This document shows positions 13,678 to 39,724 of a DNA stretch of 64,000 bases, piece by piece. The position numbers and the translations under genes are program-made. The first letter of the stretch is position 1. The number at the start of each line of letters is the position of its first letter. This stretch comes from an uncultured Arenicella sp. (GTDB taxonomy: Bacteria > Pseudomonadota > Gammaproteobacteria > Arenicellales > Arenicellaceae). The DNA lies in assembly GCA_937974565.1 (NCBI GenBank), contig CALJWL010000029.1, positions 1 to 64,000 on the forward strand, written 5' to 3'. Under the pieces are notes generated by a model that ran no database searches, was not told the origin of the DNA, and saw only the letters and a program-made list of their open reading frames with translations.

Positions 13678-14346
13678 ATGATGAAGCTCTTGTTTTTTGG
13701 CACGCTGCTGCTGTCTGCGTTTGGTTATGCGTATGGTAATGGTGCGTCTTTTGTTCCCAAAGTCGTGATAACGAGCAATAAAGATAAAGTGTCCCAGACC
13801 TTAAGGTCTGAGCGTGTTGATGAGCAATCAAAATCATCTATTTTAGCAGGATCCATAACAAATAATTACGCCACTTCTCCAAGTAAACCAAGACTAGTGC
13901 TGGATACATCCAAAGTAGAAGTCGAGTCAGATGGCTCTTATTCCCTAAAAACCTTTCAGTCAATTGATGTGTTGGCGGCGTTAAATTCTGGTATCGGCAC
14001 GGCGGTTAATTTTGAAATTCAGTTCGCTAAAAACTCATTAGTGTTAACCGCTGATGGTAAGCAGACGTTGGGGCTGATCGCGGATGCAATTAGCTATTTA
14101 AACTCAGATATTAGAATAGATTTGGAAATTCCTAAACACCCGGTCAAAGAAGAAGCATTCACAAAAGCAAGGGGCAATGAATTGCTTAGGCTTTTACACT
14201 CTCGGTATGGAGTTAAAAACCCAATTAAATTATTCATCACTCCATCTAACTCGAAGGCTGGGTTTTATTCGGCGAAAGGTCAGGATAAAGTCACTGATAT
14301 TAAGCGCATTACGATCCTGAATATGGGGAAGGTAAATAACAATTGA
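13678..14346 (+). CDS. Secreted OmpA-like domain protein
   Basis: This 222-residue protein has a signal peptide (MKLLFFGTLLLSAFGYAYG, cleavage near residue 20). The C-terminal half, from about residue 120, resembles a divergent OmpA/MotB peptidoglycan-binding domain: NFEIQFAKNSLVLTADGKQTL at the start, ARGNELLRLLHSRYGV in the middle and KRITILNMG at the end. The usual Asp and Arg that bind diaminopimelate are not obvious, so binding is uncertain. A perfect TATAAT lies at 13604-13609, but with a poor -35. The start could be either of two adjacent ATG codons. It appears to be a single-gene unit. Confidence 0.6.
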   Translation: MMKLLFFGTLLLSAFGYAYGNGASFVPKVVITSNKDKVSQTLRSERVDEQSKSSILAGSITNNYATSPSKPRLVLDTSKVEVESDGSYSLKTFQSIDVLAALNSGIGTAVNFEIQFAKNSLVLTADGKQTLGLIADAISYLNSDIRIDLEIPKHPVKEEAFTKARGNELLRLLHSRYGVKNPIKLFITPSNSKAGFYSAKGQDKVTDIKRITILNMGKVNNN

Positions 14347-14564
14347 GCTTGTTCTTATTCAAATACGATGCTCATAGTGGGAAAACTATGGCTGTAGGAG
14401 GGACAGTCGAGATTCATTAGGTAAAGACAAAGGGAGTTTGTAAGGTGTATAGTCGCAGAAAGGGCCTGCAGCTGCCGCTCATGGCTGAAGCTGATTTCAG
14501 TAAGAGTTAAGACAGATGCTGAACCCAGCGAACACTCTACGACTGTTGAAAACAGTGAGGAATC

Positions 14565-15788
14565 ATGGCGAAGCAAAAATTTGATGTTTTGGTACTCGGA
14601 GCAACCGGCTTTACAGGGAAATGGGTGGCTAAGCACTTATACGATCACTACGCAGACACTAAACTCCGGTGGGGTTTAGCGGGTAGAAGCGAAGGAAAAT
14701 TAACGCAGGTACGTGAGTTTTTAGGCGATGACAACAATCTTATTGAGTCCATTATCGTCGATAGCAATGATGAGACTGCATTGAGTGCTATGGTACTGCA
14801 GACTAAAGTAGTGATTACAACCGTTGGACCATACGCCTATTATGGCTCCTTGCTGGTAAGGCTTTGTGCTGAAGCGGGCACGCATTACGTTGACCTGACC
14901 GGCGAAGTACCTTGGATGAGAGAGATGATCGATGCGCACCATATTACCGCAGAACAAAGTGGCGCTAAGATCGTACACAGCTGTGGTTTTGACTCTATTC
15001 CATCGGACATGGGAGTGTATTTCATGCAACAACAAGCGCTTGAAACATACGCAAAACCAATGAGAAATATACGTTTTTCGTTGACTAAAGCAAAGGGTGG
15101 CATCAGTGGCGGTACATTTGCCAGCATGATCAATATTGTAAAACAAGCGGTTAGAGATAAGCGCGTTAGGAAAGTATTATTTAATCCATATTCCTTAAAT
15201 CCAGACCCCAGCTTTAAAGGTCGTGACAAACGCGACCAACAAGGAGTTGTTTACTCTAAGGAGCTTGGAAAATGGACTGCGCCGTTTTTGATGGCTGGGG
15301 TTAATACTCGTATTGTTCGGCGCTCTAATGCGTTGATGGGTTTTGCTTATGGTCAAGACTTCAGTTATACAGAGACCATGCCAACGGGCTCAGGTGCGTC
15401 AGGCTATTTGATGGCCAAGGCCATTTCGTCAGCGGTAAAATCCATTGCATTTATGAGTATCACCGCACTGGGGAGAACCGTATTGGGTGTCTTTCTCCCT
15501 TCTCAAGGGGAAGGGCCGAACGTCGACCCTGAATCCCCAGGGTTCTATGCAATACAATTTAATGGCGAAACCGCACTGAATGAACGTATGGTTGTCACCG
15601 TAGATGGAGATGCTGACCCTGGTTACGGTTCTACGTCAAAAATGCTGGCTGAGGCTGGGGTTTGTTTAGCCTTAGACCGTTCACGCGTAAAGGGCGGTTT
15701 TTGGACGCCATCATCGGCTATGGGTGACGCCTTGTTAGCGCGTCTTGAGGAAAAAGCCGGATTAACATTCAAGGTGAGCAGGCGTTAG
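14565..15788 (+). CDS. Saccharopine dehydrogenase-like oxidoreductase (trans-acting enoyl reductase type)
   Basis: This 407-residue protein begins with a Rossmann nucleotide-binding motif, VLVLGATGFTGKWVAKHL, and continues with LRWGLAGRSEGKL. Also visible are VGPYAYYGSLLVRLCAEAGT and HYVDLTGEVPWMREMI. This pattern is typical of the SCCPDH/trans-acting enoyl reductase family, which includes mycobacterial lipid-synthesis reductases and eukaryotic SCCPDH. The true substrate in Proteobacteria is unknown. The ATG at 14565 has GAGG six bases upstream. No partner polyketide or lipid gene is adjacent, so a role in lipid metabolism is only an inference. Confidence 0.75.
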   Translation: MAKQKFDVLVLGATGFTGKWVAKHLYDHYADTKLRWGLAGRSEGKLTQVREFLGDDNNLIESIIVDSNDETALSAMVLQTKVVITTVGPYAYYGSLLVRLCAEAGTHYVDLTGEVPWMREMIDAHHITAEQSGAKIVHSCGFDSIPSDMGVYFMQQQALETYAKPMRNIRFSLTKAKGGISGGTFASMINIVKQAVRDKRVRKVLFNPYSLNPDPSFKGRDKRDQQGVVYSKELGKWTAPFLMAGVNTRIVRRSNALMGFAYGQDFSYTETMPTGSGASGYLMAKAISSAVKSIAFMSITALGRTVLGVFLPSQGEGPNVDPESPGFYAIQFNGETALNERMVVTVDGDADPGYGSTSKMLAEAGVCLALDRSRVKGGFWTPSSAMGDALLARLEEKAGLTFKVSRR

Positions 15789-15947
15789 CCAGTGTATTTT
15801 AAACACTTTTTCGACGTGTGGGTATCAATAAACATTGAAGGATCGTTAAATATAGCAGTACTTTATAGAACCTTTTGAGGCTCTCGTTATACTTATTATG
15901 TGAAGTAAAGAAATAGGATATAGGCTTGGGGGAGCCGTTAAATCATT

Positions 15948-18900
15948 ATGAAGAGTAACTTATTTGATCGACTCATGCGTTTGGTGCTGCTGGTTCTGGT
16001 GTCGCTGGTAAGCATGAATGCAAAAGCTCAACGCTTTTCCACTATTGAAGTTGGAGAGGCAACATTACCGGCGTTTACCACGGCTTCGGCAACCACACTC
16101 ACGCCATTCACGCGTATTACATTTGATGCGGCATTTGCCTCAGGTGTTATACCGAATGTGTTTCCGATGACCCCAGAGTTTGGGGCCGGCGCGGATGACG
16201 ACCCTTGTTTAATCCGCATTCGAAATGTTGATAACACTGGCTTTGATGCTGTGTGTTTTGAATCACGAGACGAAGACAGAAACAGTCCAGGAACTACTTT
16301 TGAATATATAGCGATTGTGCCTGGAACAACTGATATTCCAACAACCAGTGGAGGCAACGTTCGATTTGAATCGCAGTGTGTGTTTTTGAATAGGCAGACC
16401 AGCCCGGCCCCTAATTGTAATAACTGTGATACTTCGTCAGGCATAGCCGTGGGCAATCAACGGGTTAATTTTGTTAACACCTTCAATAATATCCCCGCCC
16501 TGTTAACCCACCTGACTACAACGAATAATACACTTAGCGGAAGCTCAACCACGCCTGGCGGGGAACCTGAATTTTTAGAATCGGCCACTACCAGCCTCGA
16601 TATTACAGGTTTTAATGCGGGCATTGATCGTTTGGAAGCGGGTAATGGCGTGCTTAACAATGGCGAAACCATGTGTTATTTGGCTGTTGAACGATCAGGC
16701 TGTCAAACGCTTGATTTAACTGGACTTAACGATAATATCGCCTCAGTTAATTTCGATGCGGTGTTTGGTGAAAATGTTGATGGCCACGATAACGGTGCCA
16801 CTTCTGGAGAAGGCGCTAGCTTTTCAGACCAGTGTTTCACCAGTACACCGGTTGGTGTTGCCGATATGCGTACGCGGCGCGGTAATAACGGTGGGTTTGT
16901 TCGTCGGGCAAGTATTAATGCCAATGAAATCATCCTCACTATTGACGAAGACCGCACCAGCAATAGCGAGCGTTCTCATATTGATGAAATGGTGTCAGTC
17001 TTAGCGTTTAGTCAAACGTTCACCACACCAGTTACGTTAAGTCGTGTCAGAGTAAATCAGTTGGGTAGAAATTTACGCGTTGATTGGCAAACCAGTGCTG
17101 AGTCGCTGCACTTAGGGTTTCATCTGTGGGGTGAAGTCAATGATGGATGGGTTCAGTTAAACCGAAAAATTATCCCGGGCAAGGGCATGAATACCGACAG
17201 TAAAAGTGAGTATTCACATCGACTTCGGCTGACCCGTGAGCAGTTTAATCAAATTCAACGTTTTGGCATTTCCAGTGTTGATACAACAGGCTATGAAGAG
17301 TTTTATGGACCTTTTGAGGCTGGGCAAGAGTACGGTGCCGAGAGTACCACTGAAGCCATAGATTGGTCGGCCACTCGAGCTATGTTCGAACGTAGGATGC
17401 AAGCAAATGGGTTTGTGAAAGTCAGAGGGAAATGGCGCAAACATTCGTCGCGTTTACAGCGCAGGCTCGAACGGCGAGAGGCGCGATTACGTTCTAATAC
17501 TGTAGAGCTTACCTTTGACGGAGTTGGGGTTAGAAAAGTCCCAGTGAAAGCATTGTTGAGTGTGTTTCCTCATTGGAGTGGTAGGCCATTGTCTTCCCTT
17601 GCCGTGACACTGAATGATCAATCCGTTGCGCGTCATCTTGTTAGTCATGATCGACGTTTGTCTTCTGACGACGTACTGTTTCTGAACGTGGTTTCACCTC
17701 AAGGTCAAGACGCACTCTACATTGATCGGAATCGTTATCGAATTGTATTGGATTCCAGCAAAGCGCTTGATGCCCCCATATTTGATGGTCGTGATGTCGA
17801 AGGCAAAAATTTAGTTTCGTATGCATTTAATGAGGTCGTATTAACCGAAGATAAACGTTATTCCGCTGCAATCACCAGTGGTGACCCTTGGTACGATGCC
17901 GAGTTATTTGCCATCAATAATGCTGTTGAAGTGAATTATATGGCCGATATTGATGTCCCCATGCTTGAGAAACAAGCGGGTGAATTAGAGGTGTCGATTT
18001 TTGGTAGTATTGATCTGCCTGACCCCGTAGACGATCACCACGTGTTGATCAAGGTTAACGGTGAGGTCGTTGGCGACATTCGCTTTGACGGATTAACCGA
18101 GTACCGCACTGCAATCAACTTACGCCCCGGCTTGTTGGTTGAGGGTCAAAACCGAGTGGCGGTGAGTGTGCCGGGTGACACGGGGCTATTGGCGGATCTT
18201 GTGTTGGTTGATCGTTTGGTATTAAAAGTACCAACACATTTGAACTCTCAGAACGCAGTCGATTTCGAGGCACAACCGCACGTGCAGGGCTATAATCTGG
18301 TAAGCCCTCATTCTTTAGGCGCTCCGAAAACAGTGTTTGCACACAGTCAAACGGGTGGTTTTGTCGTGATTAATTCGGTCGAAGACGACACAGGCCACCG
18401 TTTTAGTGCCATGCCGTTTAGCCAAAGCGAGAATAACCCTGATGTCTTAAGGTATTCAATAGTAGACACAGAGACAGTGTCAGTCATGGCCTCCGTCGAA
18501 GCGGTAACCACACAAGTGCTGCATGAAACGGCAGCTAACTTACTGATTGTCGCGCACCCGAACTTTATAAGTGATGCCTTAAATGAGTATGCGGAGTTTA
18601 AGCGCAGTGAAGGGTACTCGGTGCAAATCGTCAGTTGGTTAGACTTGGTTGAATCTTACGGGTTTGGCAATAATACGCCGAATGCGCTCAACCGTTTTTT
18701 GCAGCGCGCCAAAGAAGTTTCTCAAATCGAGAATGTATTAATCGTTGGCGGGCACACCTACGATTATTTAGACACGCTAGGCACGGGGGTGGTTAATTTT
18801 ATTCCAACTCATTATCGACGAGTTGGAATATTCGAATTCGCGCCAACTGACAATGTGTTTGCTGACTTGGATGGGGATAATCTCCCAGAATTGGCCGTTG

Positions 18901-29732: not shown

Positions 29733-30485
29733 TTATGAAAACAAAAGACCGCCATTGATGTCTAAATTAACCCCTGTTAAAAAAGAAGCTTCTTCAGAAA
29801 GCAGATAACTGACTGACTCAGCTACTTCATTCGGGCGACCCTCGCGTTTTAGTGGTGTGCCATTTGCCACGTTTTCACGCACATTGTCTTTAGTGAAGGT
29901 GTCATGAAAGGTGGTGCTTATCATGCCGGGGCATAAAGAGTTAACACGAACGCCTTTCGGCCCTAATTCTTTAGCCATAGATCGGGTAAATGTCATTACT
30001 GCACCTTTGGATGTGGCGTAGGCTGACGCGCCTGGGCCACCACCGTCTCGCCCTGCCTGTGAAGCGAAATTCACAATCGATGCACCCGCGCTCATGTGCG
30101 GTAGTGCGGCTTTAATGCTAAGAAATGTTGGGTTTAGGTTTAATCGAACCACGTGATTAAAAAACTCTTCGTCCATTTCGTCAATGGTTTTGCGCTCGAC
30201 TAAGCCACCAACCACATTAACTAATCCGTCAATGCTGTCACCAAATGCCTCAACCGTTGAACGAATCAGTTTGGAAACATCTTCGCCTTTAGTCATATCC
30301 CCTTGGGTAATGATCGCTTGCGCTCCTGCTTCGGCTAGCTCTGATTGCAGGCTTTCGGCTTGGTCTTTACTGCCAAAATAGTTGATTGATACTTTCGCAC
30401 CTTCGGCCGCTAACTTTTTGGATATTTCGCGACCAATGTCTCTAGCACCACCAGTAACGATTATTACTTTGTTTTCAAGTTTCAT
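29733..30485 (-). CDS. SDR-family reductase, probable DEH reductase of alginate catabolism
   Basis: This 250-residue classical SDR has the nucleotide motif VTGGARDIGREI (residues 10-21), Ser142, Tyr156 and Lys160 in the active site (SAYATSKGA) and a C-terminal PG motif SLCPGMIS. Within an alginate lyase operon such an SDR usually reduces 4-deoxy-L-erythro-5-hexoseulose uronate (DEH) to 2-keto-3-deoxygluconate. That role is inferred from context and resemblance to DehR-type enzymes. The start at 30485 is the ATG; an upstream TTG adds four residues. It is the last gene of the operon, 33 bases after the MFS gene. Confidence 0.8.
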   Translation of the reverse strand: MKLENKVIIVTGGARDIGREISKKLAAEGAKVSINYFGSKDQAESLQSELAEAGAQAIITQGDMTKGEDVSKLIRSTVEAFGDSIDGLVNVVGGLVERKTIDEMDEEFFNHVVRLNLNPTFLSIKAALPHMSAGASIVNFASQAGRDGGGPGASAYATSKGAVMTFTRSMAKELGPKGVRVNSLCPGMISTTFHDTFTKDNVRENVANGTPLKREGRPNEVAESVSYLLSEEASFLTGVNLDINGGLLFS

Positions 30486-30518
30486 AGTTTTATTCAAATT
30501 TATTAAAATATTTAAGAG

Positions 30519-31820
30519 TTATGACCGCCCACGAATAGGCTCAATTTTAGGGCACAACAGCCAAACACTGGCTGCGGCTATCACCGCTAAAGCGGCGCCG
30601 ATAATGAAGGCCGGGGTATAGTTGCCACCTGACGTTAGCCATGGGACCAAAGAAGTAAGAGCAACGGCGCCTAACTTTGCGGCCATCCCGGCTGTGCCGG
30701 CAAGTGTGCCCACTGTTTTACCACCAAATAAATCACTTGGAAGTGTTTGTATGTTGCCGATCGCTGTTTGAAACCCAAAAAGAATGATCGCCATTAAAAG
30801 CACGGCCGTAACCGGTGACCCAGGGTTGGCCATGGCCAACAATGAAGGCAACATAATGGCACACCCCAAGGTGATTGCCAATTTACGAGTGGCGTCGACG
30901 CTCCAGCCTGCTTTTATTCTGTTTTGAGCCAACAAACCACCAAACCACGCACCAAACATTGCCCCCACATAGGGAACCCAACCATAGATACCAATAGTCT
31001 TCACGTCCATGCCATAAACTTCAGATAGGTATATAGGGATCCAAAAAACAAACAGCCACCATATAGGGTCAATTGCAGCCGAAGCAATAATAACCCCCCA
31101 GCTTTGTTTATGACTTAACAATTGAGCTGTTGTTGGATTATAACCTTCATCGTGTTCACCGTCCTTATTAACGTCGTGGTTAATTTGCCCGCTTAGAATG
31201 TATTCACGCTCTTTATCGGTAATCCATGGATGAGATTTGGGAGGGGCCTTCACTAATATTAACCATGGAATTAACCATAATAGACCAACCAAGCCAACAA
31301 TAACGAATATGGCTTTCCAACTGAAATAGACAGACAGGAAGGCAATCAATGGAATTGAAATGATGCCGCCAATCGCCGCGCCAGAATTAAAAATGCCCTG
31401 CGCTAATGCTCGCTCTTTGGTGGGAAACCATTCAGCGTTCCCTTTGGCCGCCCCAGGCCAATTACCGGCCTCGGCAACTCCGAGAATCGCCCGAAAAATA
31501 CTGAAGGTTAGTACGCCTTTGGCAAAAGCGTGTAAAGCGGTTGCAATCGACCATATGCCAATGGATAAGGCAAAGCCCATGCGTGTACCAACCCAGTCGA
31601 ACACCTTGCCAAAAATCGCTTGCCCAAATGCGTAAGCAAACACAAAAACGACCGAAATCAACGCATAAATTTCTTTACGCTCATCATCCGTTTTATCTGG
31701 GTACAGTTCTCCGGCTATTTGTGGCCATAAGACATTTAAAGACTGCCTGTCAATGTAGTTGATGATGGTTGCCAGTGCGATTAAAGCAATGACCCACCAG
31801 CGTAAGTTTTTCATTTTCAT
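30519..31820 (-). CDS. MFS permease of the hexuronate/ACS type
   Basis: This 433-residue protein has about twelve hydrophobic segments and the ACS-family motif IINYIDRQSLNVLWPQIAGEL. It also has GVAEAGNWPGAAKGNAEWFP, typical of ExuT-like hexuronate permeases. In alginate operons such permeases import unsaturated monouronates or DEH; this is inferred. It starts at ATG 31820, where the end of the PL17 gene supplies GAGGAG as ribosome binding site. The stop codon of PL17 is five bases from this start, so translation is probably coupled. Confidence 0.85.
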   Translation of the reverse strand: MKMKNLRWWVIALIALATIINYIDRQSLNVLWPQIAGELYPDKTDDERKEIYALISVVFVFAYAFGQAIFGKVFDWVGTRMGFALSIGIWSIATALHAFAKGVLTFSIFRAILGVAEAGNWPGAAKGNAEWFPTKERALAQGIFNSGAAIGGIISIPLIAFLSVYFSWKAIFVIVGLVGLLWLIPWLILVKAPPKSHPWITDKEREYILSGQINHDVNKDGEHDEGYNPTTAQLLSHKQSWGVIIASAAIDPIWWLFVFWIPIYLSEVYGMDVKTIGIYGWVPYVGAMFGAWFGGLLAQNRIKAGWSVDATRKLAITLGCAIMLPSLLAMANPGSPVTAVLLMAIILFGFQTAIGNIQTLPSDLFGGKTVGTLAGTAGMAAKLGAVALTSLVPWLTSGGNYTPAFIIGAALAVIAAASVWLLCPKIEPIRGRS

Positions 31821-31825
31821 TATTC

Positions 31826-34024
31826 TTACTCCTCTAACAAGACGTAATGACCCACCCAGTCGATGGTTTTATTATCAAGCTCTAATGAGTGTTTACTAGA
31901 GCGAGTGCCTTTTTGCGACAACAACAATTTAATTTTTTTACCATCAATTAGCTCGACTGACACTAGGTCTATGCCGTTGATTAGGGTATGCGACAGTGCT
32001 TTAACGCTTGGGTTAGCTTTTACCGTGTATTCAGCCTGCCCGTTATACTCGCCATGCTGTTCAAGCACAGCGACAAAGGCATGATCTTTTGCTTTTTTAA
32101 CGCGATGAACCAATGCGTTTTGGCTGGTGAGATTGAAGTATGGGTCATTGGCGCCCAGCTGTGTGAAGAACAGGGTCTGATCTGGCCCGCCCAGCGTTGA
32201 ATAGGTGTAAAAACGACCATTATGCAGCCAAGTCATCTTGCCTAGTTCATTGTTGAATTTGCCGCTGCCCTTGTTCCAAAGGTATTGGTATCCGTTTTTA
32301 TTTCCCAATGGAACCAGTTGTTTGGCATTGGCATTAAAATCATAGTTGTGAGAAATTAACTGACCTTGGTAATGTAACGGCAGGTCATATTGATGTTCTT
32401 TCGAGCTGCTCACTTTTAATAAATCTAATATCAATGGGTACTCAAGGCTCTCGTGAGAGACCATGGCCATCGTTCGGTTAAATTTTACGTCTGAGTAGGC
32501 GTCAGCGACCGAGGCACTGGTGATTTTGATTTTTTCAGTGGCGTCAAAAAACAAAATACTGGGAGCCGACTTTTGGGCCTGTCGCCAATTGCCATCAAAA
32601 TGGCTAATTTCATCCACCACCAGTGTGTTGTGTGCAATCGTTTGTTTGGCCCACTTATTGTTTTCAGGGAGGTAGTGACCGCCATATTTCGCTTCAATGT
32701 TTAGAAACCGAGCGGCCCCATAGTCGCTAATGATTTCTTCACCGTTATCAAAATACAGCCAATGCAATTTATCAAAGTGGCCGTGACCAAGGCCTTGTGA
32801 TGTGTTTTTCATGACCAATGCTTGATGGCCAGCTTCAAAACCGCTGCGAAAAATGGCTAAGGCGCCTTGGTCGCCTTGGTCGCCATCTCTAAGCTGCATT
32901 GACGTAAACTTAAATGGCTTTTCTAACCCTTTCTCCAGCGCGTCGGCCACGGCAAAACCATACCCAGTTAACAGCGTTTGACCTTGCTCTCGAGCAACGC
33001 TTAATAATGAATTGTCTCCGGTTACTTGGTACGCGATCGCAACCCCATGAACTAACTCAATGGTATTAATGCCTTTGTCTTTGATAGCGTCATTAATACC
33101 AAAAAACAAACCATTGTAGCTTAAATGAACAGTGGTTCTGATGGCTTTGAGTAAGGCGCCATCGTCAAATTCGAAGATGTGCCGGTCGGGCTCATTAACG
33201 TCGATTGCTTTAGCAAATAACACAAATGGCATTAGGGCGTACCGTTGATAATACGGCCCTTCGGCGTAATACCCATCGGGTGAAAAAAGGTGTTCAACTT
33301 GTTTTAAGAAACCCGCAGAGCCGTCCATTGATAGACCGTAAAGGGCCTGCTTAACCAAAACTTCATCGCCCAGCACATAACCCGTCATGCCAACGGCTGC
33401 GGCTGCCCATGTACCATGGTTGTGTATTTTGTTAAAGGTATTGGGTTGCCCGTGCGATAAAAAATTGGCCATTGGCCTAAGCAGTTGCAATTCTATTTTA
33501 GATTTATCATCGGCACTTAAAGAAGCGGCAACCATGTCATAAGCTTGAATGCTGTACACCAACCAAACGGCCTCATTCAGGCTTTGCCAGAATAATTTCC
33601 CTGGAGACTGCTCTTTAGGTTTGGGGTGCAAACCGAGTTTTGGATACAGGTCGGCGTATTCCAATAACATGGCACGCGTAAACTCAAAATATTGGGTGTC
33701 CCCTGTTAGATTAAAAGTTAAAGCCGCATCGTAAAGGCTTTGATAATTTCGCTTATGTTGTTCGTGCGTAAAACCACCTCCGGCATCAGCGGGCATAGGC
33801 ACAACCATCGGCTGCTCAATCGTTGCGTCTACCTTGGCTTGTAACTGCGAAAGCGCCGTTTTTGCCAGCGAGGTTTGATTGATGTTATTGCGGATCGTTT
33901 TAAAATCTGCCTGCGTAATCGTAAGGTTAGGATGGCCTTTGTCTTTCGATGTGGCGGCTTCGGCACCATAAGCAATGACCAAAAGGGAGGTAAGGGCCGC
34001 CCAACCGTTTTTTATTATTGTCAT
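31826..34024 (-). CDS. Oligo-alginate lyase, polysaccharide lyase family 17
   Basis: This 732-residue protein has a signal peptide (cut near GAEAA, residue 24) and then an alpha-barrel alginate-lyase domain with FNKIHNHGTWAAAA (about residues 196-209) and SPDGYYAEGPYYQRYALM. The C-terminal beta-sandwich of the heparinase II/III type contains GLGHGHFDKLHWLYFDNG, and GAARFLNIEAKYGGHYLP follows it. The layout equals PL17 exo-lyases such as Alg17C, which release monouronates from alginate oligomers. The protein is probably periplasmic. It starts four bases after the PL6 stop and overlaps no gene. Confidence 0.92.
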   Translation of the reverse strand: MTIIKNGWAALTSLLVIAYGAEAATSKDKGHPNLTITQADFKTIRNNINQTSLAKTALSQLQAKVDATIEQPMVVPMPADAGGGFTHEQHKRNYQSLYDAALTFNLTGDTQYFEFTRAMLLEYADLYPKLGLHPKPKEQSPGKLFWQSLNEAVWLVYSIQAYDMVAASLSADDKSKIELQLLRPMANFLSHGQPNTFNKIHNHGTWAAAAVGMTGYVLGDEVLVKQALYGLSMDGSAGFLKQVEHLFSPDGYYAEGPYYQRYALMPFVLFAKAIDVNEPDRHIFEFDDGALLKAIRTTVHLSYNGLFFGINDAIKDKGINTIELVHGVAIAYQVTGDNSLLSVAREQGQTLLTGYGFAVADALEKGLEKPFKFTSMQLRDGDQGDQGALAIFRSGFEAGHQALVMKNTSQGLGHGHFDKLHWLYFDNGEEIISDYGAARFLNIEAKYGGHYLPENNKWAKQTIAHNTLVVDEISHFDGNWRQAQKSAPSILFFDATEKIKITSASVADAYSDVKFNRTMAMVSHESLEYPLILDLLKVSSSKEHQYDLPLHYQGQLISHNYDFNANAKQLVPLGNKNGYQYLWNKGSGKFNNELGKMTWLHNGRFYTYSTLGGPDQTLFFTQLGANDPYFNLTSQNALVHRVKKAKDHAFVAVLEQHGEYNGQAEYTVKANPSVKALSHTLINGIDLVSVELIDGKKIKLLLSQKGTRSSKHSLELDNKTIDWVGHYVLLEE

Positions 34025-34028
34025 TTTT

Positions 34029-36338
34029 TTATTTCTTAGATTGATACAGGTTGTCCGCCAAGTTGGCGGTGTTTTCTTGATCGCTGTAAAGTTCTTGAAC
34101 CTCTATGACCGGCGTGTTGGTAAAGATGTTTGATTGAATTTTAGTCACGGGTTCGCCAACAGTATGAAACACGCGAAGCGGCAAGCTGTTTGTTATTTTG
34201 TTATTTTCAATAGTGGTTACTTGAACTCCGTGTAAGGTAATGGCACTTTTTGATTTATTTCTCTTTCCCAATCCTACGTTGATTAATGTGGAGCCGCTCA
34301 TGTTGAAATGCGGACCAAACGTACTTTCATCCGTACCCCCCCGATAGTAATCAACCAAATCACCGCCCACATGGCTAAAGGATGAGTTTTTGATTACCAC
34401 ATACTCCGCGTTGTAAATACCGTAATCGTCGTTTTCTTGGCTTAGGCTGAGAATGGCGCCAGTGACGTCTTTAAAGTGCGAGTCCAGAATCTCTATTCTG
34501 TCGGCAAACGTGCCTTTGAAAACGCTTAAAAAATTGAAACTGTGATTAATATCAAGATCCACGATCCGGCTGTTTTTTACAATCAACTGATAGTTGCTTA
34601 GCATTGATTTTCGTTGGGTTCGAATCACTGAGTTGCCTGAACTGTCAGGCGACTCAGCACCGGAAATCACCACCCCATCAAGCTTAAGGTTACCGCCCTC
34701 ATGAATCTCGAATAAAGCGGTTCGCTGAAACGTTATTTTGGCTTCTCCCGCTACTTTGGCGGCAAGCGTAACGGCTTTGTTAAGAACCAAAATTCTTGAC
34801 ATTGCATACTCCCCAGCGTTGAGAATAAGAACATCGCCATCCTTCGCTTGCTCTAACGCTTGATGTATTGTATCCAACCCCGGTTTAACGGTAATTCTCT
34901 TACCGTGATCAAAGGTGATAAATTCGTTTGGTTTGGGGTACCAAGAGACACCCACATCGGTTTTTTTAATAGGCTTAATCGAACGGCTAACACCAACGCT
35001 TTCTAGGTTTTGTGGGTTATTGTTTGGGTATAAAAGGCCATTGTCGGCTCTTGTTAATTCAAACGCTTGTTGGGTGAACCCCGTTTTGATTTGCAACTCT
35101 GAGTGATTGTTAATGACATTATCATCGAAGGTAATGCCGCTAATGTCGTCGTAGATCGTAAATGGGTCGTTATTGTTGGTGGCTTGAATTAAGTTGCGTT
35201 TAAAATGCGTTCGGATAGGCACGGCAGAGCGTTCAAAATCGCTGCCCGCGGCGAGTTGAATATGGTCTGAATTCACCAAGGTGTTGTTTTCCACAACGGA
35301 GTCCTCAACTTGGTGATATCGGTTAATCTTAGAATTAGGCACGCCATTCATTATCACTAACGCCCCGCCAAACCGATATCCGGCAAGGCCTTCAAGGTAG
35401 TTGTTTTTAATCGTTTGGCGTTTATTAATCACACGAATGCCACCCGTGTGGTCAGCCCCATTACCAAAGAAAACGTTATTCTCAACCAAGGTGTCGTTTC
35501 CATGACGCAAGGTTAATGTGCCCCTTGACTGATAGAACACATTTCCTCGAATGACATTGTTGCCGGCTTTATTTGAAATGATTTCTAACTCACCGTCACA
35601 CCGATCAAAGTAATTGTTTTCCACCACAGTAAAAGAATTCGTGAGAGAGTAATGGCTGGTGCCCACGCGAAGTGTTTCCCCTCCATTCGACCCTAAAACT
35701 GACCGTGGTCCAAAGTAGTTATGATCTATTCGGTGATTGTTTTGTTGGCTTTGCGGAGTGTTCAGCCTTACCGCAAGAGTGACCCCTTTATTGCTCTTGC
35801 CTTCCAAATGATTATGGTCAAAACGATTATTTTTACCGTATATCGCAACCCAATAGTCCACTTCATAGCGTTCTGGGTTACTGAAATTATCAATAACGGT
35901 ATCGGTAACGCGTGAGTTATTAGCTAAATTGTGTTTATCTTTCTGGTATGAAATGACGGCGCTGGTTGGGGTGTGGCCGTGTTTAAACACTAGGCCTGAG
36001 ACAATTAAATGTTCTCCAGAGAGTCTTAAATTTGAAAGGCCGCTAATGATCACCTTACCTTTTGTTTCGGCAGTAAGAGTAATCGGCTTGTCCACAGTGC
36101 CTTGGCCTTCGAATAAAATTTCAAAGTCACGCCACACTCCGTTTTTGAGAACGATGGTGTCGCCCGCCACCACCTTGGAACGTGCTTTTTCATAGGCTTC
36201 TTTAGTATTCACTTTATACGTTGCCGCCATTGCTTGCGAGAACAGCAGTGAACACAAAAGGATTCCCCAAAGAGCCGACTTAAAACCTCGTAATGCGTTT
36301 TTTTGCTTGAAATGTGTGCTTATTATTGTCATGGGCAT
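34029..36338 (-). CDS. Alginate lyase, polysaccharide lyase family 6
   Basis: This 769-residue protein (from the ATG at 36338) has a signal peptide ending SQAMAATYK and two parallel beta-helix regions. The PL6 catalytic residues are visible: Lys257 in IISNKAGNN and Arg278 in LTLRHGNDT. Their 21-residue spacing equals the Lys/Arg pair of AlyGC. A Ca-binding region is at GGETLRVGTSHYSL with DGELEI. A second helix domain (residues 470-770) fits the two-domain PL6 form. The start is uncertain: ATG at 36338 or 36332, or an upstream TTG at 36359. It is the first lyase of the operon and probably acts on long-chain alginate. Confidence 0.92.
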   Translation of the reverse strand: MPMTIISTHFKQKNALRGFKSALWGILLCSLLFSQAMAATYKVNTKEAYEKARSKVVAGDTIVLKNGVWRDFEILFEGQGTVDKPITLTAETKGKVIISGLSNLRLSGEHLIVSGLVFKHGHTPTSAVISYQKDKHNLANNSRVTDTVIDNFSNPERYEVDYWVAIYGKNNRFDHNHLEGKSNKGVTLAVRLNTPQSQQNNHRIDHNYFGPRSVLGSNGGETLRVGTSHYSLTNSFTVVENNYFDRCDGELEIISNKAGNNVIRGNVFYQSRGTLTLRHGNDTLVENNVFFGNGADHTGGIRVINKRQTIKNNYLEGLAGYRFGGALVIMNGVPNSKINRYHQVEDSVVENNTLVNSDHIQLAAGSDFERSAVPIRTHFKRNLIQATNNNDPFTIYDDISGITFDDNVINNHSELQIKTGFTQQAFELTRADNGLLYPNNNPQNLESVGVSRSIKPIKKTDVGVSWYPKPNEFITFDHGKRITVKPGLDTIHQALEQAKDGDVLILNAGEYAMSRILVLNKAVTLAAKVAGEAKITFQRTALFEIHEGGNLKLDGVVISGAESPDSSGNSVIRTQRKSMLSNYQLIVKNSRIVDLDINHSFNFLSVFKGTFADRIEILDSHFKDVTGAILSLSQENDDYGIYNAEYVVIKNSSFSHVGGDLVDYYRGGTDESTFGPHFNMSGSTLINVGLGKRNKSKSAITLHGVQVTTIENNKITNSLPLRVFHTVGEPVTKIQSNIFTNTPVIEVQELYSDQENTANLADNLYQSKK

Positions 36339-36545
36339 TCGGTTTGGGTTGACCGTCAATGGTTACGTTAAATAAAGACAGGGCAGGGGGTATTAATTCA
36401 AAAAACACCAGCCCCCCTAAACTCATTACACTTAATCAAGTTTACTGAAGAAAATCAAGGCCGGTTAAACAAAACAGCCGTGGTGAGGCCCAGCCTGCCT
36501 TAAAACGTTACATAACTGGCAAAACGAAACGCGACCTGATACACC

Positions 36546-37709
36546 TTATTGAGGTGTTAATGAGTCACCAGACCAACCTCTGTCGGTCATTAAATAAGTA
36601 GCAAAACTGGCCAGCCAATGCGAGCCTGAATAGTGTTCATCGGATACGGCAGCAACGCCGGTGTTGGCGTGAATTTTGGCTGTGCCTACTAATGCACTCT
36701 TGCGAGCATCGCCTTTGGGTAAAGCTCTGGCGATATTGTAGAGGTTCCAAGCACGTGACGAATTAACGCCGTCTAAATGCACCAGCTTACCATCTGAAGC
36801 GTCTTTAACAATGCCAGGTTTTAGCCAGTCAACACGGCCATTATTTGGGATGCCAGGCAAGAAACTCTTAAGCCATTCGGCAAACTGATCCGTGGGCAAG
36901 ATACGCCGCATCAGATCGGCCTCCATCAAGCAGGGAGATAAAAAGTCTTCCCCACTGGGCTCGTAGGTGATTGGACAGTTAACATCATGGCGGTGAAAAG
37001 CCAAAGATCGACTTATAATTAAATCTTCCATGTCAGCATCGCCAACTTCTCGGGCCCAGTCCAGCATCAACCCGAATGCAAACGCACTTTGATTGTGAGT
37101 GCCAAGGCGAATGGGGTACGCTAATTTTGGAAGCCAGTGTTTAAGGCTGTTCGCAATATCGATTTCTAATGGTTCCAAGCGTTTTAACCAAGATTTTGAT
37201 TGCTCGTTATTCCACTGTCGTAACTCAGTGGTTAACTGCAAGTACCAAGCCAAACCATAAGGCCGTTCCCATGAGCCTCGTGCGGGTCGAGAAAAATTGG
37301 CGACTTCACCAGCCAAATTCTCAGCCGTAAAATTCTCATTTAATTTTTTGATCGCTTCATCTCGCCATGCGGCGTCTTGTGGCCCTACGCGCAACAGGCG
37401 TACGAGCAACCAATGACCATGCACTGCGCTATGCCAATCGAAACAGCCATAAAAGGTTGGGAATATTTCTCGCGGCCTACCAATCGCTTCGGCGCTGCTG
37501 GTTGTGCGGGAGATCTTATTAGGAAACTCTTGTTGAATGCAGTTAAGGGCTAAGGCGGAAAAACGGTTGGCCAGATCGGGAGAAATAGTGCTTGGATAAA
37601 CCAAATTATCGTCGTCTGAGTTGGCCAACGCACGACCGCCAGAGAGAGCGGCTGGCATTATAGTGACAGCAAATAAAACGATTCGAAACGAGGCAAACAT
37701 AAAAGGCAT
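36546..37709 (-). CDS. DUF2891-domain protein, exported
   Basis: This 387-residue protein has a probable signal peptide near the N-terminus (hydrophobic residues 7-24). It contains the DUF2891 landmarks FYGCFDWHSAVHGHWLLVRLL, WERPYGLAWYLQLTTEL, NQSAFAFGLMLDW and the C-terminal EHYSGSHWLASFATYL. The many conserved Trp, His and Arg residues and the helical composition look like an alpha/alpha toroid enzyme. No reaction is established to my knowledge. It lies 207 bases upstream of the PL6 gene on the same strand, so a link to the alginate operon is plausible. The start is the first of two Met codons. Confidence 0.8.
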   Translation of the reverse strand: MPFMFASFRIVLFAVTIMPAALSGGRALANSDDDNLVYPSTISPDLANRFSALALNCIQQEFPNKISRTTSSAEAIGRPREIFPTFYGCFDWHSAVHGHWLLVRLLRVGPQDAAWRDEAIKKLNENFTAENLAGEVANFSRPARGSWERPYGLAWYLQLTTELRQWNNEQSKSWLKRLEPLEIDIANSLKHWLPKLAYPIRLGTHNQSAFAFGLMLDWAREVGDADMEDLIISRSLAFHRHDVNCPITYEPSGEDFLSPCLMEADLMRRILPTDQFAEWLKSFLPGIPNNGRVDWLKPGIVKDASDGKLVHLDGVNSSRAWNLYNIARALPKGDARKSALVGTAKIHANTGVAAVSDEHYSGSHWLASFATYLMTDRGWSGDSLTPQ

Positions 37710-38407: not shown

Positions 38408-38484
<77 letters not shown>

Positions 38485-39083
38485 AATTTGGTGATTTCTA
38501 GAATTGGTGAAATTCTCTTAAATGTCTGGAAATCCGACATTAAGCTTTGTATCTTCATTGATCTGCTCGCAAAGCTTAATGTTTTTACCAACTTCCCATA
38601 AAAATCAACCATAAAGATCAACAAGTGACTCCTAAACAAGTGACTCCTACTTGCTGACATCTGACGGTCAACTCAGCCTCTGTACACGTATTTTTTATGC
38701 CCATGCGTGTTTGAGTCTTGATGCGGATTTTAGGGTGCGTCGATAAAAAATGGATGGTCGATTAAAGCACACCCATCATAACGCAGTCCAAATTTCAGAT
38801 GCGCTGTTTCGTCAAGTAAACTTTGGACACCTTGTGTGCCCCAAACCTTGCGTGACCAAAACAAGGCCAACGCCAGACGCGCACGCTTGAATAAGCGATT
38901 AAAAATGCGAAGCTAGTCATTGTGTCGTCCTAAACTCATGACTTACTAATTCAATGTTTAAAACACGAAGCATGGGTCTTTTTTTCTGAACCCATATGCA
39001 CCATAATATTGGTTGTAAGTTCGTTGATGAACATTTAAATCTTTTCAAAATCCATAAAAAATTAAGCCCTAGGAAATATAAAA
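38485..39083 (+). other. Gap after the initiator tRNA
   Basis: About 600 bases with no gene that I can support. Short frames occur, but they have no family signal or ribosome binding site. It could hold gene remnants or a tRNA-linked integration scar, but no attachment repeat was found by eye. Confidence 0.4.
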
Positions 39084-39724
39084 TGAAAATTGCACTAATG
39101 ATGGAAAACAGCCAAGCCGGCAAAAACGCCACCATTCTTAATGAACTTAACAACGTGGTCACCCCAATGGATCACGATGTATTTAATGTTGGAATGAGTG
39201 ACGAAAATGACCATCACCTAACCTACATTCACTTAGGTATTATGGCAAGCATACTGATCAACAGTGAAGCCATCGACTTTGTTGTTGCTGGTTGTGGCAC
39301 GGGGCAAGGCGCAATGATGTCTTTAAACGTTCACCCTGGCGTTAATTGTGGTTACTGCTTTGAACCGTCGGATGCGTTCCTGTTCAATCAAATCAATAAT
39401 GGCAACGCCATTGCCATGGCGTTCGCCAAAAATTTTGGTTGGGCTGCTGAGTTGAATGCGCGTTATATTTTTGAAAAGGCTTTCACAGGCAATCGCGGTG
39501 AAGGTTACCCTGTTGAGCGCAGAGAACCTCAAGTTCAAAATGCGGGCATACTTAACGATGTAAAAAGTGCGGTTATTAAAGATAACTATATCGATACTTT
39601 GCGTGCCATTGATCCTGAGTTGGTTAAAACAGCGGTCTCAGGTGAACGCTTTCAAAAATGCTTTTTCGAAAACTGTAAAAAGCCAGAAATTGAAGCGTAT
39701 GTTCGCGAACTTTTAGCGTCATAA
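39084..39724 (+). CDS. RpiB/LacA/LacB-family sugar isomerase
   Basis: This 213-residue protein has the RpiB-type active-site segment VVAGCGTGQGAMM (Cys71) and the downstream motif NQINNGNAIAMAF, equivalent to the RpiB HNNANVL-type loop. The family isomerises phosphosugars, but one branch (DhuI) isomerises unsaturated-uronate products to 3-deoxy-D-glycero-2,5-hexodiulosonate. The gene is longer than RpiB (about 150) and carries an extra C-terminal helical part. It lies about 1.4 kb from the alginate/DUF2891 block, which suggests a uronate rather than a pentose role; that is inference. AGGAAA precedes the ATG. Confidence 0.75.

Follow-up and report, generated by a model that had tools for sequence, protein, structure and literature searches.

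In Campylobacter jejuni, a DUF2891 gene forms the operon cj0552-4 together with DUF969 and DUF979 genes. The operon responds to glutamine, and its mutant lost growth on 5-oxoproline (pyroglutamate) in an experiment that the authors call preliminary (PMC12795558). In Corynebacterium glutamicum, growth on 5-oxoproline requires PxpT, a transporter of the Nramp type, and the accessible parts of the report on pxpTABC mention no DUF2891 gene (PMC13274462). In addition, a table of PMC10040529 gives hydantoinase B, DUF969, DUF979 and DUF2891 as four successive entries, the last three being numbered 115 to 117 or adjacent, and PMC10434189 lists a DUF2891 gene and no more; as far as accessible, the literature found under DUF2891 assigns no reaction to the family. 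The structure of the C. jejuni protein, Cj0554, has been solved (PDB 8ieu, 8iev), and a search for 8IEU found no paper. On the alginate side, the closest solved enzymes are the polysaccharide lyase family 6 (PL6) enzyme AlyGC (5gkd) and the PL17 lyase 4nei. Here, a DUF2891 gene and an alginate operon are described from the window, the whole 64,000-nucleotide stretch analysed, at positions 1 to 64,000 of contig CALJWL010000029.1 of an uncultured Arenicella sp. (genome G000 below). With moderate confidence, we read them as two independent units side by side: a reduced alginate operon, and an exported DUF2891 protein whose family most likely serves the use of 5-oxoproline. Their adjacency is probably a coincidence and no sign of a partnership.

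Open reading frames (ORFs) and family matches confirm that the genes are real and that four of them form one minus-strand operon with the exported DUF2891 upstream, as the preliminary description had it. The short-chain dehydrogenase/reductase (SDR) is a probable reductase of 4-deoxy-L-erythro-5-hexoseulose uronate (DEH), and the permease belongs to the major facilitator superfamily (MFS).

29733-30497, minus strand: SDR oxidoreductase, probable DEH reductase; role assigned by operon context
30519-31820, minus strand: MFS permease of the galactonate/hexuronate type; MFS_1 match, best model TIGR00893, below its cut-off
31826-34024, minus strand: PL17 oligoalginate lyase; domains and homology to 4nei
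34029-36359, minus strand: two-domain PL6 alginate lyase of the AlyGC type; PF14592, homology to 5gkd over residues 49-768
36360-36545, no strand: intergenic region between DUF2891 and PL6; no minus-strand terminator-like site, TTGTAATACAA absent even with 2 mismatches allowed
36546-37709, minus strand: DUF2891 (PF11199) protein with an N-terminal signal-like segment; read as a separate unit

DUF2891 genes and 5-oxoproline genes

Three sets of DUF2891 loci were compared: 39 from 398 sampled Pseudomonadota genomes (the phylum set), 80 named loci, chosen as the best among 586 confirmed sites, and 8 from the order. Contig ends truncate some of the loci. One of the 39 (L222) was not found again by BLAST and was dropped from BLAST-based counts, and two of the 80 (L045, L048) repeat the order loci L030 and L027 and were left out of the counts over 78 named loci, the hydropathy scoring and the tree.

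The genomic association with 5-oxoproline genes is clear, and the family most likely serves 5-oxoproline use. DUF979, present in 43 of the 398 genomes, occurs in 23 of the 40 with DUF2891, where 4.3 would be expected (p 3e-15, one of the 23 being below the cut-off and kinship being uncorrected). Of the 39 phylum loci, 19 have both DUF969 and DUF979 next to DUF2891, in a tight gene order DUF969-DUF979-DUF2891, whereas none of the 80 named or 8 order loci has them there; in L240 the order is extended to PxpC-PxpA-DUF969-DUF979-DUF2891. A PxpT-like Nramp gene is found in seven of the 80 named loci and the pair PxpA and PxpC in four, taking the CT_A_B gene, as we presume, to be PxpC. Furthermore, the arrangement DUF2891-Nramp-PxpA-PxpC occurs in L063, L065, L067, L071 and L232, and Nramp in L078. 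A fused oxoprolinase/hydantoinase, which judged by its sequence might also be a hydantoinase, lies within 8 kb of DUF2891 in 7/38 phylum and 2/78 named loci, accompanied by Nramp in L099 and L100 and without it in L216. Overall, a 5-oxoproline transporter or oxoprolinase-type gene is linked in 21/38 phylum, 7/78 named and 0/8 order loci, so that the linkage recurs at the level of the family. In 41 control loci anchored on PL6 (311 kb), whose mean length is below that of the DUF2891 loci and some of whose PL6 matches fall under the cut-off, there was no DUF969, DUF979, PxpA or PxpC gene, and one Nramp gene. These neighbours point away from the preliminary proposal of an alginate enzyme and towards 5-oxoproline.

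Within the genus, PxpA (4/18 genomes) and Hydantoinase_B (14/18) show almost complementary distributions; the exceptions are G013, with both, and G014, with neither. Among the control genomes, that of Caulobacter vibrioides has matches above the cut-off to DUF2891 and Hydantoinase_B, and a match to DUF979 that is at least weak.

Family, fold and location of DUF2891 proteins

The window protein matches PF11199 along profile positions 2-324 of 325 (E 5e-128, 427 bits against a gathering cut-off of 25). Its AlphaFold2 model (pLDDT 85.9, from 34 sequences) superposes on Cj0554 with Z 41.3 and a root-mean-square deviation of 2.4 over 332 residues, at 38% identity. Compared with Cj0554, the window protein has the N-terminal signal-like segment and is not encoded beside DUF969-DUF979. 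Far weaker matches (Z 13-15, 6-11% identity) are to GH88 unsaturated glucuronyl hydrolases and AGE-type epimerases at fold level only, with unrelated complement domains of the same barrel mixed among them; among the families listed, the search beyond 8ieu/8iev returned the common barrel only. The model thus supports an alpha/alpha barrel, as the preliminary description had guessed, and by itself assigns no function.

Cellular location was judged from N-terminal hydropathy in 125 proteins. A signal-like segment is present in none of 19 DUF979-linked and in all 8 Nramp-linked DUF2891 proteins. Sixteen sub-threshold rows without DUF979 were sorted by eye into ten exported (L061 doubtful) and six cytoplasmic. 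For the tree, every row with a linked DUF979 gene received the cytoplasmic label automatically, and the independent evidence for the pairing is the hydropathy scoring; L235 carries the exported label, its reading frame looking over-extended and the protein probably being cytoplasmic. After removal of partial or divergent rows (L220, L221, L080, L061), a quick tree of 121 proteins placed 96 exported forms on one side of a branch with support 98, and the window copy among copies of its genus and loci labelled Hellea and Caulobacterales. Because the exported forms make one clade, the change of location is essentially one event, and its pairing with transporter type does not represent many independent events.

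It is a tentative proposal, held at somewhat under even confidence, that DUF2891 proteins are an unrecognised 5-oxoproline enzyme. Such an alpha/alpha-barrel enzyme would release 5-oxoproline from a conjugate or interconvert (isomerise) it, acting in the cytoplasm where the partner transporter is DUF969/DUF979 and in the periplasm where it is a PxpT-like Nramp protein. Judged by kinship alone, the window copy itself may take part in 5-oxoproline use.

Weighing the readings

No PL6 or PL17 gene lies within 5 kb of DUF2891 in any of the 39 phylum, 80 named or 8 order loci, so the recurrent linkage that would mark an alginate enzyme was not found. In 12 other genomes with both DUF2891 and PL6, the genes are 0.77-2.4 Mb apart on one contig in four and on different contigs in eight, several of these contigs being short, so that a distance of kilobases is possible in some. 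Within the genus, DUF2891 occurs in 8/18 genomes, PL6 in 12 and both in 6 (Fisher p 0.44), and the two are adjacent only in G000. Across the order, the overlap in seven of nine DUF2891 genomes (p 7e-6) mainly reflects the concentration of both genes in this genus. A literature search on DUF2891 together with alginate led only to a paper in which such a gene is listed.

Several observations weigh against the reading as two separate units with a 5-oxoproline family. DUF2891 and the operon share a strand with no terminator-like site between them, and read-through from DUF2891 into PL6 is possible for that reason. In the sampled Pseudomonadota, DUF2891 occurs in 40 genomes and PL6 in 32 (27 over the cut-off), and the two coincide in 7 of the 40, G000 included, against 3.2 expected (p 0.03). 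With PL6 over the cut-off and G000 set aside, the coincidence is 6 against 2.6 (p 0.03); strong PL6 matches coincide with DUF2891 in 6 genomes where 1.7 are expected (p 0.004), and without G000 in 5 where 1.6 are expected (p 0.014), kinship being uncorrected throughout. The C. jejuni mutant removes all three genes and its authors credit DUF969/979, so the phenotype need not be that of DUF2891 (PMC12795558), and YcsG, the Nramp partner in Bacillus subtilis, is reported as a manganese importer (PMC10448178). The named loci, none of which has DUF969/979, are the closest kin of the window copy, and no 5-oxoproline gene is linked in 88 of the 97 rows that carry the exported label. In the window genome, DUF979 and PxpA are absent genome-wide and no 5-oxoproline gene lies within 6-8 kb of DUF2891, while Nramp was not sought genome-wide; the HyuA/HyuB pair of this genome is on another contig (C67; L270 7795-11708) and need not be an oxoprolinase. 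Whereas DUF2891 relatives, exported and not, sit inside 5-oxoproline loci (pxpTABC; DUF969-DUF979), the window DUF2891 stands outside them as a lone gene, and the surroundings of DUF2891 vary across the genus.

The unlinked exported rows would also fit an exported clade, window copy included, that took another periplasmic role, neither alginate nor 5-oxoproline, as would the repeated neighbours of some groups (a histidine kinase, or proteins that match no Pfam family). We regard this as rather unlikely: Nramp, PxpA or oxoprolinase-type links fall in about four separate places within the exported clade, and an alignment of 34 sequences, some exported and some not, has 38 invariant columns. The preliminary description instead suggested that DUF2891 may be a new carbohydrate-active enzyme that acts on alginate or a modified form of it and would complement PL6 and PL17. 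The shared strand, the distance of 186-207 bases, the signal-like N-terminus, the barrel like that of GH88 and AGE enzymes and the phylum-wide coincidence speak for such an enzyme. However, the linkage is confined to the window genome, eight order relatives have DUF2891 away from PL6 (six of them carrying PL6 elsewhere), the candidate operator-like site treated below was found in PL6 loci of the order and in none of its DUF2891 loci, and the recurrent neighbours are 5-oxoproline genes, which makes this role very improbable. The check that it proposed, co-occurrence with alginate lyases, came out mostly against it: a modest phylum-wide excess exists, and neither linkage nor an association within the genus appeared; a link between DUF2891 and alginate is not supported. 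The tight gene order might suggest that DUF2891 is no enzyme and instead assists the DUF969/979 transporter, as a helper or third subunit; this too is very improbable, since exported copies stand alone or with Nramp genes and the barrel bears many invariant polar and aromatic residues.

The reduced alginate operon

The alginate unit, in the favoured reading independent of DUF2891, has intergenic gaps of 4, 5 and 21 bases (33 if the SDR begins at its ATG) and lies 186 bases from DUF2891 (207 if PL6 begins at its ATG); the gaps of 4, 5, 33 and 207 bases given earlier hold with those ATG starts. PL6 matches PF14592 (E 4e-117) and is a full-length relative of AlyGC, its nearest solved structure (909 bits, residues 49-768), with homology over both domains. 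The two-domain form with a catalytic Lys/Arg pair was correctly foreseen: in an alignment read by eye, the pair falls on AlyGC K220/R241. We take K220 to be the partner of R241 and assume a one-residue offset in numbering; R241 is named in the title of structure 5gkq. PL17 contains the Hepar_II_III_C and Alginate_lyase domains and is related over its full length, both domains included, to 4nei (822 bits over 14-726); its match to the NCBIfam oligoalginate lyase equivalog has E 8e-264, yet is below the model cut-off. The SDR belongs to adh_short_C2. Because it is closer to the uncharacterised dehydrogenases 4yqy/3edm (276/272 bits) than to the DEH reductase 4tkl (129 bits), its role is assigned from operon context, and its position is the same as in the alginate operons of relatives. 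From family knowledge and these operons, PL6 would cut alginate, PL17 would free unsaturated monomers, the MFS permease would import them, and the SDR would reduce DEH to 2-keto-3-deoxygluconate.

PL6 is present in 12/18 genomes of the genus and 15/109 of the order. Besides the window's own locus, 12 order loci were fetched from the 15 PL6 genomes, G004 and G048 being left out. Typically, the order is TonB receptor, PL6, PL17, KdgF cupin, MFS, SDR and PfkB kinase, with a GntR-FCD regulator nearby. Copies at least 50% identical to those of L040 were found for the regulator in 9/12 loci, the receptor in 7/12 and the kinase in 8/12 (some contigs are cut), and MFS copies 61-90% identical to the window permease in 11/12; PL17 is missing from the operon in L036, L037, L038 and L044. 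One relative, L037, has a PL17-like gene of 41% identity apart from the operon and, near it, an Nramp-like gene (13912-18409).

The window shares the order PL6-PL17-MFS-SDR, KdgF apart. Unlike most relatives, it has no GntR regulator, TonB receptor, KdgF or PfkB kinase beside the operon. The absences listed earlier stood for the GntR regulator, receptor and kinase, no relative of which occurs in the window, and for KdgF, which has no match anywhere in the window genome (97.9% complete). KdgF is found in 11/18 genomes of the genus; of the 12 PL6 genomes, 10 have it, the two without it being G000 and G007. Across the whole genome, the best regulator match is 35% identical, against 67-82% in the loci of eight relatives. 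The palindrome TTGTAATACAA, a candidate alginate operator and itself a guess, occurs with at most 1 mismatch in 10/12 fetched PL6 loci (L033-L037, L039-L042, L044; no shuffle control there), mostly near the GntR gene, and in 0/8 order DUF2891 loci. At one mismatch there is none in the window at 29.7-37.7 kb; one two-mismatch site lies inside the MFS gene, and the window as a whole has no excess of these sites over shuffles (26 vs 30). The window operon is therefore reduced compared with those of most relatives, being without regulator, operator-like site, receptor, KdgF and kinase.

Scans of the window gave 11 terminator-like sites against 11.6 in shuffles and 9 promoter-like sites against 16.3. 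On the far side of DUF2891, an RpiB/LacA-like isomerase is encoded at 38996-39724 (plus strand), related to 3ono (352 bits) and 4u8e (215 bits); the latter we take to be DhuI, the DEH isomerase of streptococci. That the window isomerase replaces KdgF was considered and rejected: it occurs in 2/18 genomes of the genus, and in the other one, G016, its contig is not that of PL6. A tRNA-Met (38408-38484, plus strand) separates DUF2891 from the isomerase gene, within 1.3 kb in which no ORF reaches 120 amino acids. A mobile island at this tRNA was likewise rejected, as 7/8 order DUF2891 loci (some short) have no tRNA and there is no composition shift.

The alginate side is thus ordinary, a trimmed form of the operon that is common among members of this Arenicella-like genus. 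For the widespread DUF2891 family, with a solved structure and its reaction unassigned, the comparison provides a lead: the family is most likely tied to 5-oxoproline use, and its predicted location, cytoplasm or periplasm, follows the type of transporter.

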